This document shows, piece by piece, positions 55,427 through 57,109 of a stretch of DNA of 64,000 nt. This stretch comes from Haloferax sulfurifontis ATCC BAA-897. GTDB lineage: Archaea > Halobacteriota > Halobacteria > Halobacteriales > Haloferacaceae. Each line of letters starts with the position of its first letter. The first letter of the stretch is position 1. The DNA lies in assembly GCF_000337835.1 (NCBI RefSeq), contig NZ_AOLM01000020.1, forward strand, positions 124,001 to 188,000, read 5' to 3'. Below the pieces are notes generated by a model that was not told the origin of the DNA, made no database searches, and saw nothing but the letters and a program-made list of their open reading frames with translations. The position numbers were made by a program, and so were the translations under genes.

Positions 55427-55643
55427 GAGTTTCCGGGGGCGCGTCGCTGACGGGGTTGCGTTCGGAGACGTGCGTCGGCCGGGAGTTCACCGAGCACCGT
55501 GAGATGAACGCAGGCGCACCGGCGAGACCGGCGGTCGAGTCGGTGAGACGGGGTTTGAGCCGAGCCGAGACGATTTCCTCGCGATGCTCGGAACTGCGTC
55601 TCGTCGGGTTCGAAATCCCAGCGTCCCGCACACAGCCTCAAGA

Positions 55644-55667
55644 CCGAGAGACACGGAGGTCTCTCGG
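55644..55667. other. Hairpin in repeat unit 1
   Basis: CCGAGAGAC, a 6-base loop, then GTCTCTCGG: a perfect 9-bp stem. Equivalent to the hairpin at 55775 with one compensated base pair. Confidence 0.7.
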
Positions 55668-55694
55668 AGGTTTGTGTTCGGCAGAAGTGCGTCG

Positions 55695-55751
55695 GCTGGG
55701 ATTTGAACTCCACTCGCTCACTCGCGTTCGCTCGCTAGTTCAAATCCCAGC
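55695..55751. repeat. 15-bp perfect inverted repeat from opposing T-arm fragments
   Basis: GCTGGGATTTGAACT (55695-55709) and its complement AGTTCAAATCCCAGC (55737-55751) flank a 27-base CTCGCTCACTCGCG-like spacer. Both arms are tRNA-Gly T-arm sequence in opposite orientation. Confidence 0.75.
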
Positions 55752-55774
55752 GTCCCGCATTCACAACTCACAGT

Positions 55775-55802
55775 CCGAGCGACACGCACAGCGGTCGCTC
55801 GG
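55775..55802. other. Hairpin in repeat unit 2
   Basis: CCGAGCGAC, a 10-base loop, then GTCGCTCGG: a perfect 9-bp stem immediately downstream (minus-strand sense) of tRNA-Gly. Relative to unit 1 an A-T pair has become C-G on both sides. Confidence 0.7.
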
Positions 55803-55823
55803 AAGGTAGATTCGTTGTAGAAG

Positions 55824-55894
55824 TGCGTCGGCTGGGATTTGAACCCAGGTTGTGACCATGGCAAGGTCACGTGATACCACTACACTACCGACGC
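55824..55894 (-). tRNA. tRNA-Gly (anticodon GCC)
   Basis: A full 71-base cloverleaf on the minus strand, without encoded CCA. Acceptor GCGTCGG pairs with CCGACGC plus discriminator A. The anticodon arm TGACC-TTGCCAT-GGTCA reads GCC, and the T arm is CTGGG-TTCAAAT-CCCAG. It decodes GGC/GGU glycine codons. Second of two tandem copies in transcription order, 12 bases after the other copy. Confidence 0.96.
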
Positions 55895-55906
55895 ATGTGG
55901 TGGAAG

Positions 55907-55977
55907 TGCGCTGGCTGGGATTTGAACCCAGGTTGTGACCATGGCAAGGTCACGTGATACCACTACACTACCAGCGC
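55907..55977 (-). tRNA. tRNA-Gly (anticodon GCC), second copy
   Basis: Identical to its neighbour except in the acceptor stem, GCGCTGG pairing with CCAGCGC, where both strands changed together. First in transcription order; a clear TATA box lies about 50 bp upstream. The two are probably processed from one precursor. Confidence 0.96.
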
Positions 55978-56081: not shown

Positions 56082-56149
56082 TACCACGTGAGATTCGCCC
56101 TCGGCGACCTGTCGCCGACCGTGTAATTATGTACCACGCGACATTCGCC
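56082..56149. repeat. Direct repeat flanking a palindrome upstream of the ribosomal protein cluster
   Basis: TACCACGTGAGATTCGCC (56082-56099) recurs as TACCACGCGACATTCGCC (56132-56149), two mismatches in 18. Between them lies CGGCGAC-ct-GTCGCCG (56102-56117), a perfect palindrome. These occupy the 289-bp spacer between tRNA-Gly and the SPOUT gene. Confidence 0.6.
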
Positions 56150-56206
56150 AATCTCCCGCAAACTGGGTCGTGGGACGCTCTATCACCCCAGAACGGATTC
56201 GCTACT

Positions 56207-56214
56207 CTTTTAGG
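56207..56214 (+). promoter_or_regulatory. TATA-like box of the ribosomal protein cluster
   Basis: CTTTTAGG lies 53-60 bp before the ATG at 56267, which would leave an mRNA leader of roughly 30 bases, unlike the leaderless genes elsewhere in the window. Confidence 0.4.
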
Positions 56215-56266
56215 TAGGCCCCCGGTACAAACGCCACAGTCTAGACGAGACGAGGATGAACCCGGC

Positions 56267-57109
56267 ATGAAACTCAGCGTACTCGTGCCGTCCTCACTCG
56301 TCCGGGAAGCCGAAGACAAACGCGAGGCAACTCGCAAACTCGGCTACGTCGCCCGCGCGGCGGCGGTCTTCCGGGCGAACGAACTCGTCGTCTTCCCCGA
56401 CGAAGACGGCGAGAACAAGTGGGGCGGCGAGTTCGTCGAAACCGTACTTCGGTACGCCGCGACGCCCCCCTACCTCCGCAAGGAGGTCTGGGGCAAGCGC
56501 GACGAACTCCGCTACGCTGGAATCTTGCCGCCCGTTCTCGTCGCGTCTACGACCGCGGACGACTCCGACGAGTCGCCCGCGTTGCGAGAAGGAATCGTGA
56601 CCGAGGTCGGACCTGACGACCGCGTTCGGGTCAATTGCGGAATGCAACACCCGATCTCCCTGTTCGTCCCTCCCGGGATGGACCTCACAGAGGGAGAGCG
56701 CGTCGCTGTCAGGATCTCTTCGCGAGAACCGGTCCGTGCGCGGATCGTCGACGAGCCCCGTCCGGGCTTCGACGTATCCCGCATGGACCTCACGGAAGCA
56801 CTCGGCAGGCCGGATGCGGGCGTGCGAATCGCCACGTCTCGCTATGGCGAACCGCTGTCGGTCCCCACATTGGGTGACTTGACGGCCCGCATCACCGATG
56901 CCGGCGGCATGACCGTCGTCTTCGGGTCGCCGGGCCGTGGGCTTCCGGACATGCTCGGGATGCCTCCCGAGGATGTTGCAGACGTCGAACCTTCCGTTGG
57001 TCCGGGGTTCGACCTCTGGCTCAATACGATTCCGCGACAGGGCAGTGAGGTCGTGCGAACAGAAGAAGCGATGTTCGCCTCCCTCGCCTCCCTGACACTC
57101 ACGGAGTGA
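56267..57109 (+). CDS. SPOUT-type putative RNA methyltransferase heading the ribosomal protein cluster
   Basis: A 280-residue protein of the COG2106 type. An N-terminal alpha/beta-knot part (MKLSVLVPSSLVREAEDKREATRKL...RANELVVFPDE) is interrupted by an OB-like insertion (about 105-165), and FGSPGRGLPDMLG with FDLWLNTIPRQGSEVVRTEEA near 222-270 supplies the knot that binds S-adenosylmethionine. Relatives include a 23S rRNA/uridine methyltransferase class. Codon use is less GC-rich than its neighbours. ATG 56267 starts the first strand, and rpl3 follows after four bases. Confidence 0.85.
   Translation: MKLSVLVPSSLVREAEDKREATRKLGYVARAAAVFRANELVVFPDEDGENKWGGEFVETVLRYAATPPYLRKEVWGKRDELRYAGILPPVLVASTTADDSDESPALREGIVTEVGPDDRVRVNCGMQHPISLFVPPGMDLTEGERVAVRISSREPVRARIVDEPRPGFDVSRMDLTEALGRPDAGVRIATSRYGEPLSVPTLGDLTARITDAGGMTVVFGSPGRGLPDMLGMPPEDVADVEPSVGPGFDLWLNTIPRQGSEVVRTEEAMFASLASLTLTE

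Follow-up and report, generated by a model that had tools for sequence, protein, structure and literature searches.

Why should a tRNA gene be followed by further copies of its own 3′ end, each accompanied by an inverted piece of its T-arm and by a hairpin? The question is raised by two tRNA-Gly(gcc) genes on the minus strand of the 64 000-nucleotide stretch of Haloferax sulfurifontis DNA analysed here (the window). The upstream gene (55906–55977) has no unit directly behind it, and the second (55823–55894) stands at the head of an array. In the tRNA sense, the array runs from the tRNA through a trailer with hairpin B, an inverted T-arm, core alpha and a displaced tRNA end (D′1) to a trailer with hairpin A, a second inverted T-arm, core gamma and a diverged end copy. 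The exchangeable 3′ end of the head gene (D, tRNA positions 53–73) lies at 55824–55844 on the minus strand. Unit 1 (55688–55823, minus strand), a 136 bp step between tRNA ends, comprises trailer B, an inverted T-arm, core alpha and the displaced end. Its trailer hairpin B, CCGAGCGAC...GTCGCTCGG, is at 55775–55802 (minus strand) and shows covariation. The inverted T-arm copy (55738–55759, plus strand) is the complement of the T-loop and of the 3′ part of the T-stem, followed by a diverged end. The purine-rich core alpha (55709–55737, minus strand) separates the inverted from the direct copy, and D′1 (55688–55708, minus strand) is identical to positions 53–73 at 21 of 21 bases. Further on, trailer hairpin A, CCGAGAGAC...GTCTCTCGG (55644–55667, minus strand), is followed by the inverted T-arm copy of unit 2 (55608–55630, plus strand), with one extra base in its T-loop part, and by core gamma (approximately 55561–55607, minus strand), which holds the hairpin TTCCGAGCATCGCGAGGAA (55575–55593) with tandem G–A pairs.

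The first-pass annotation had described two units at this place, each made of an inverted T-arm fragment, a hairpin and a minus-strand tRNA-Gly end. Both are real, in their positions as in their sequence blocks, but the first unit actually starts inside the functional tRNA gene: the 26-base block AGAAGTGCGTCGGCTGGGATTTGAAC found at 55683–55708 recurs at 55819–55844, where it extends into that gene. The two end copies are also joined by a third, more diverged tRNA-Gly end, GGTGAACTCCCGGCCGACGCA, at 55471–55491 (minus strand). The 232 nt stretch originally described (55613–55844) folds at z = −7.0, well beyond chance. The plus-strand neighbours of the tRNA-Gly genes are an open reading frame and frames that read as ribosomal-protein-like. 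In a search of the window and eight further loci against Rfam 15, nothing on the units exceeded the gathering score, and only tRNAs and an L4-Archaeoglobi leader were matched. The leader match in the window (69.9 bits, 56613–56712, plus strand) sits within apparent coding sequence, inside the long open frame 56129–57109; it also occurs in a locus from another family (L016).

Anatomy and distribution of the units

We cut 61 units from three genomes: the window genome (G000), G045 and G056. Most measure about 83–150 bp (full span 54–256 bp). None of the units examined carries a gene, and an integrase gene is absent because they are too short to hold one. Of the 61 units, 47 contain an inverted copy of their own T-arm, which spans positions 54 to about 65 and has at most three mismatches in 13; the corresponding rates, computed over all 197 units, are 0.8% for shuffled units and 9.6% of 591 trials for foreign T-arms. 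The last four tRNA bases are mirrored as well in 11 of these 47 units (foreign, 3.6%).

The direct copies have sharp limits. Over 74 copies from three genomes, identity to the local tRNA stays at the background level as far as position 51, reaches 0.88–1.00 at positions 53–73, and behind N73 drops from 0.64 to about 0.35; the criterion for a copy demands similarity inside 53–73, and both edges fall outside it. As positions 53–56 are near-uniform in all tRNAs, the true left edge could lie anywhere within 52–57. The copies are direct-oriented 3′ tRNA fragments running from the loop to the tRNA end, as is characteristic of elements that use tyrosine recombinases. Both the end copy and the inverted arm follow the local tRNA, and only the inner parts recur between loci; terminal sequences common to different loci, of the kind that marks MITE or REP-type repeats, were not found in the units. 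Copies do not decay with distance along the stack (Spearman 0.07, p = 0.42, n = 123), and a gradient of age was rejected on these figures. Foreign tRNA ends, which might have proved jumping between tRNAs, are absent from G000 and G056; the six rows at three places in G045 are taken as the neighbouring tRNA-Met array read from tRNA-Asn.

To assess breadth, we counted as an own-end copy the last 21 nt of the same tRNA, with at most four mismatches, 25–400 nt downstream; units with more than four mismatches in the end copy are left out of the counts. Such copies follow 21 of the 51 tRNA genes of the window genome, and 20 of 44 and 15 of 42 in two genomes that belong to the same order but to other families (42 tRNA genes entered the count for G056, where Rfam gives 45). 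A fourth genome, G058, has one among its ten best-scoring tRNAs, and the 26 control tRNAs from four genomes of other families of the phylum have none. Upstream of the tRNAs the counts are 1/49, 0/13 and 0/16, and the ends of other tRNAs, used as a control, match in 3 of 1020, 0 of 880 and 0 of 840 trials. Own-end copies are far beyond chance, and the pattern is widespread in Halobacteria, at about 40% of the tRNA genes in the three genomes examined, related species not being independent samples. A search for the element in other haloarchaeal genomes, as initially suggested, indeed finds it behind many tRNA genes in three families; what had been proposed as a dispersed repeat is dispersed as a pattern, but its tRNA-specific parts are strictly local. 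Moreover, a scan of GTDB genomes gave at least 80 loci with a perfect T-arm palindrome, 68 of those listed being haloarchaeal as judged from their titles (two of them recorded only as ‘Euryarchaeota archaeon’). Among the loci listed, a same-strand tRNA stands no more than 800 nt upstream of 67 of the 74 haloarchaeal matches, against 1 of 13 matches in the remaining 12 loci; because a perfect palindrome was the means of selection, paired arms are over-represented in these loci, which were treated separately in the tests.

Displacement of tRNA ends and trailers

At the tRNA-Gly locus of 13 Haloferax genomes, the trailer directly behind the tRNA is of type B in seven, A in three and X in three, and these types mix freely with the cores. 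Trailers behind displaced copies match the tRNA trailers of other genomes rather than their own. In G007, the trailer behind D′1 is identical (1.00) to the tRNA trailer of G000 and only 0.52 identical to that of its own tRNA; the values against other species are 0.95 in G008 (own 0.66), 0.94 in G000 (own 0.69) and 0.86 in G013 (own 0.58). The outermost copies (D′1 in G001 and G009, D′2 in G007 and G008) have no tRNA trailer match above 0.66, as expected of the original flank. The same holds for tRNA-Phe: of 28 copies, seven have a trailer with an identity of 0.80 or more to one that follows the tRNA in another genome, and all 28 stay below 0.75 when compared with the trailer of their own tRNA; over the three genomes, 11 of 74 copies share the trailer of their own tRNA at 0.75 or more.

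The conspecific genome G063 provides the closest comparison. Trailer A stands directly behind its tRNA-Gly, as it does in G003, G005 and G008, whereas in the window genome it stands behind D′1, an extra 136 bp unit with trailer B lying between the tRNA and D′1. Unit 1 is absent at the equivalent position in G063. The distal cores also differ (gamma in G000, delta in G063), so more than one event separates the two genomes. The pair, together with the displaced trailers, supplies filled and empty sites that differ by the element, in an order that is not polarized: loss of a unit by recombination between direct repeats yields identical pairs. Finally, trailers are related between tRNAs for different amino acids within a genome, 26 of 1213, 21 of 898 and 34 of 858 pairs scoring above the best shuffled pair.

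The copies run from the T-loop to N73, and old ends with old trailers have been displaced downstream, so that repeated integration at the tRNA gene, one of the possibilities raised by the first-pass annotation, is well supported. In our reading, to which we give about an even chance, the units are miniature integrative cassettes without genes, and the 3′ end of the tRNA is what they replace. This reading draws on the exact span of the copy (53–73), which is what an element that restores the tRNA needs, on the match of displaced trailers with the tRNA trailers of other genomes at tRNA-Gly and tRNA-Phe, on the shift of trailer A from the tRNA to D′1 by one extra unit, on the local and downstream placement of the copies, on the free mixing of trailers and cores, and on the kinship of trailers among tRNAs for different amino acids. 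What the comparisons show is that a unit placed at the T-arm gives the tRNA gene a new 3′ end and trailer, that the old end and its old trailer come to lie about 130 bp downstream, and that repetition yields a stack. Entry would occur by recombination in or near the T-loop, and the repeated ends would then allow the units to be shuffled by further recombination.

The stacks are very probably reshuffled by homologous recombination too. Could this process act alone? Ancient arrays might be reshuffled solely by exchange between cells, with no dedicated enzyme: one crossover would fall in the flank of the tRNA and another between an end copy of the donor and the tRNA end of the recipient, units would be gained or lost, and gene conversion would hold the end copies equal to the tRNA. 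Haloarchaea do exchange DNA between cells, the units have direct repeats of 21–26 bp at their boundaries, independent recombination of cores and trailers takes place at shared T-arm parts, the copies show no decay with distance, and a stretch that lies between two end copies in G000 is missing from G002. This explanation leaves aside where units with a fitted inverted arm behind some 40% of tRNA genes come from, and why trailers are related at tRNAs of different identity; as a sole cause we consider it fairly unlikely.

The related trailers at different tRNAs, with an end and an arm fitted to each, are the hardest fact. Simple site-specific integration leaves unexplained how end and arm are rewritten between tRNA identities; the fit could have been copied from the target at insertion or acquired later by gene conversion or selection. 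Against integration by cassettes also stand the lack of any gene in the units and of any recombinase tied to them, the outcome of the searches of phage, plasmid and viral sequences and the different design of the local 6.7 kb element (both below), the unpolarized direction of the genome pairs, the absence of extra decay in distant copies and the minority of copies that do share the trailer of their own tRNA.

Hairpins and strand polarity

The changed stem noticed between the two trailer hairpins of the window, with both sides altered together, is real and belongs to a wider set. We compared 14 distinct homologous hairpins drawn from several tRNA loci: of 126 cells, 99.2% are paired and a single one is not; shuffles pair at 88.0%, and none of 500 is as high. 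Changes on both sides affect three of the nine pairs and occur in 12 cells, against a mean of 4.5 after shuffling. In addition, 47 of 61 units have, on the tRNA-sense strand, core and trailer hairpins in which Watson–Crick pairs flank tandem G–A pairs, whereas the mirror pattern on the opposite strand occurs in three (0.84 expected after shuffling). Two other sets give 46 of 62 and 54 of 73 units with such sense-strand hairpins. Hairpins of the d(GCGAAGC) type are stable, and the unit cores resemble them. The sense strand also folds better than the antisense strand in 43 of 62 units (p = 5.5 × 10−4 with RNA parameters, 1.3 × 10−3 with DNA parameters), with a mean fold z of −4.1 compared with −3.3 over 61 units, and in the arm duplex G–T mismatches outnumber A–C mismatches in three sets (39:27, 55:17 and 50:13).

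Selection for a structure, as claimed at the outset, is supported by the covariation and by the strand polarity; the latter would fit RNA or single-stranded DNA alike, unlike a cruciform of double-stranded DNA. Because the tandem G–A pairs are kept on the sense strand only, we infer that the tRNA-sense strand acts in a folded, single-stranded form, and the data suggest single-strand folding of that strand. Under integration by cassettes, this polarity, which counts among its supports, leads us to favour a folded single strand as the participant and an enzyme acting in trans as the catalyst, for which a tyrosine recombinase of the type that integrates at tRNA genes is the likeliest candidate.

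The same polarity is what a selected trailer RNA would show. The array would be co-transcribed with the tRNA, and its hairpins, inverted T-arm and end copy would steer 3′-end formation or tRNA folding, the inverted arm being able to pair with the T-arm of the tRNA itself or with the copy. Covariation agrees with this, and so do the first trailer bases: trailers often open with runs such as CTTCT or TTTTC, which resemble the terminators of Haloferax volcanii, where intergenic termination uses a T stretch and takes place at a C (PMC7237163). If so, each unit would bring its own terminator; with one directly behind N73, transcription would end before most of the unit. Moreover, no obvious RNA function needs a copy that ends at N73 while the next trailer is exchanged, and 30 of the 51 tRNA genes of the window genome have no copies. 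The H. volcanii circRNA-seq data, as far as the accessible part of that study goes, gave seven BHB-flanked circles, namely tRNA introns, rRNA and one 5′ UTR (PMC7714728). A role as trailer RNA as the explanation of the units strikes us as unlikely.

Tandem G–A hairpins are not confined to tRNA genes, and their status as a tRNA-only motif was rejected. Of 96 such hairpins in the 68 haloarchaeal loci listed, 41 lie within 700 nt downstream of a tRNA in the same orientation, 13 have a tRNA nearby but on the opposite strand, and 42 are away from tRNAs, many of the last with 4 bp stems and longer loops. In the window genome, GAGCGNAGCGAG has 28 matches and is not commoner than its backward control (63), and GAACGNAGTGA has 19 and is commoner (1). 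A repeated motif was also seen away from the tRNA arrays of this genome, at C2:101414, C12:155627, C16:81040, C27:236219 and C27:279457 (L338, L351, L352, L361 and L363): TTTTTGGTCCAGATTTTTGC or a near variant, a tandem G–A hairpin core and then mostly AAAAGGTGG. These five loci gave no match to this motif in Rfam.

Relation to known integrative elements

When islands and proviruses integrate into tRNA genes, the incoming end restores the tRNA and the old end is displaced (PMC4383910, PMC8371274). The units resemble these elements of tyrosine recombinases in the restored 3′ end and the displaced, direct-oriented 3′ fragment, in a crossover region formed by tRNA loops and in the reuse of sites in arrays (PMC4383910, PMC8371274). 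They differ in size (about 0.1–0.15 kb instead of kilobases), in having neither an integrase nor any other gene, in the inverted T-arm and core hairpin, and in occupying about 40% of the tRNA genes of a genome. The Islander procedure, as described in the accessible text, drops candidates below 2 kb and tests for an integrase gene (PMC4383910), so that the units would escape its listing.

Might they be scars of ordinary tRNA-integrating viruses or plasmids, each unit consisting of the two ends that remained once the interior had been deleted? Such elements are usually recognized by tRNA 3′ fragments (PMC4383910, PMC9897764), partial tRNAs lie beside full ones in Hfx. gibbonsii (PMC7921747), and the window genome has a gene-bearing insertion with a longer tRNA-Glu fragment. 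Deletions would, however, give varied sizes, whereas most units fall within the range of about 83–150 bp given above, and many tRNAs have trailer and core modules in common; no intact large element with these modules at its ends was noticed. A standard element is also available locally for comparison: at C19:8058–14771 of the window genome (L388, L373), about 6.7 kb separate tRNA-Thr(cgt) from a fragment made up of its last 13–14 bases, behind which a unit array continues. No inverted T-arm precedes this end fragment; with so short a tRNA end and no inverted arm, the standard local element differs in design from the units. An origin as such scars is in our view quite improbable. Searches of phage records with the units gave no match, and the only match among plasmids was confined to the tRNA part; the palindrome occurs in only two IMG/VR contigs in the viral contig scan, in both cases inside apparent genes at 44% GC. 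A viral attachment site was rejected on these grounds. Local tandem duplication or replication slippage of the tRNA end, to which the strictly local copies might point, is very improbable and largely refuted by the differing trailers, since it would have copied the trailer too, yet identity falls at N73 and few copies (none at tRNA-Phe) share that of their own tRNA.

Two further arrays of the window genome contain genes. At C2:51369–53133 (L383), the tRNA-Glu(ttc) array encloses a gene for 470 amino acids that reads as ATPase-like; the fragment behind it extends back towards the anticodon arm, and this 1.75 kb insert was rejected as a gene-carrying autonomous partner of the units, its longer tRNA fragment making it look like another kind of element. 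At C18:96734–98805 (L384), two tRNA-Phe genes with arrays flank a near-identical pair of small genes that look like cold-shock proteins.

Two other systems stack or fold in a comparable manner. Integron cassette arrays consist of small modules stacked behind a fixed site, with imperfect strand-specific hairpins and exchange at the head of the stack, all of which the units share; but the units have no gene, and their attachment sequence varies from tRNA to tRNA. In integron attC sites the crossover GTT is at the outer end of the palindrome, whereas in the units listed GTTC opens the end copy next to the core, on the inner side. CTX-type elements integrate as folded single-stranded DNA by means of the host Xer recombinases and have satellites. 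The tandem arrays of the units are similar, and a strand-specific folded substrate with a helper enzyme in trans would be; their target is a tRNA T-arm and not dif, no replication gene or phage was seen with them, and for them a single-stranded intermediate is a prediction from strand polarity.

In the literature searched, in which subscription journals are thinly covered, no description of such units was found, apart from a remark on partial tRNAs and general papers on tRNA fragments. The remark concerns Hfx. gibbonsii LR2-5, where 11 partial tRNAs are reported, several directly adjoining a full copy (PMC7921747); these very likely belong to the same set, and the accessible part of that account mentions neither the unit structure nor trailer displacement, the inverted arm or the breadth. 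The other papers on tRNA fragments, in their accessible parts, concern kilobase elements (PMC9897764, PMC3119063, PMC6563490). Compared with known integrative elements, what is new is that the units are gene-less, tiny, built of hairpins and present at about 40% of the tRNA genes in three genomes.

A bolder extension, which we regard as doubtful, is that Halobacteria host class-wide mobile hairpins of about 100–150 nt without genes, each homing to the T-arm of one tRNA gene and entering as a folded single strand with a recombinase in trans. A large fraction of the cell's tRNA genes would thereby have their 3′ end and trailer renewed again and again, and targeting would fall to the inverted T-arm, which would be rewritten whenever a hairpin moved to another tRNA. 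If the units are indeed integrative cassettes, many haloarchaeal tRNA genes would be composite, with an inherited body and a 3′ end and trailer swapped as cassettes smaller than the sizes that island finders look for. They would offer a minimal integrative element for study and a testable case of folded single-strand integration in archaea, and would explain the partial tRNAs of haloarchaeal genomes. Even if homologous recombination alone is at work, a fast-changing tract lies behind many tRNA genes, which matters for tRNA annotation, 3′-end mapping and the choice of vector integration sites.

Similar arrangements were seen in other contigs. A metagenome contig of 42% GC labelled only as a bacterium (L098, QNEG01000093.1, 6132–6404) has a tRNA-Ser, a spacer, an inverted T-arm, a core and a tRNA end; the last coincides with the contig end, and the arrangement may be an assembly repeat. 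Three Candidatus Nitrosocosmicus contigs have repeated tRNA 3′-end copies (L168, WHSX01000006.1, 460–8000; L170, JARFXS010000028.1, 252–2900; L122, QCWC01000235.1, 310–1240). No integrase-like frame was recognized among the open reading frames listed for L168 and L170. The end copies are 0.9–2.4 kb apart, with some inverted T-arms and with ordinary genes between them (hydrolase-like and ferredoxin-like by reading), and the whole resembles a tRNA-anchored stack that carries genes.
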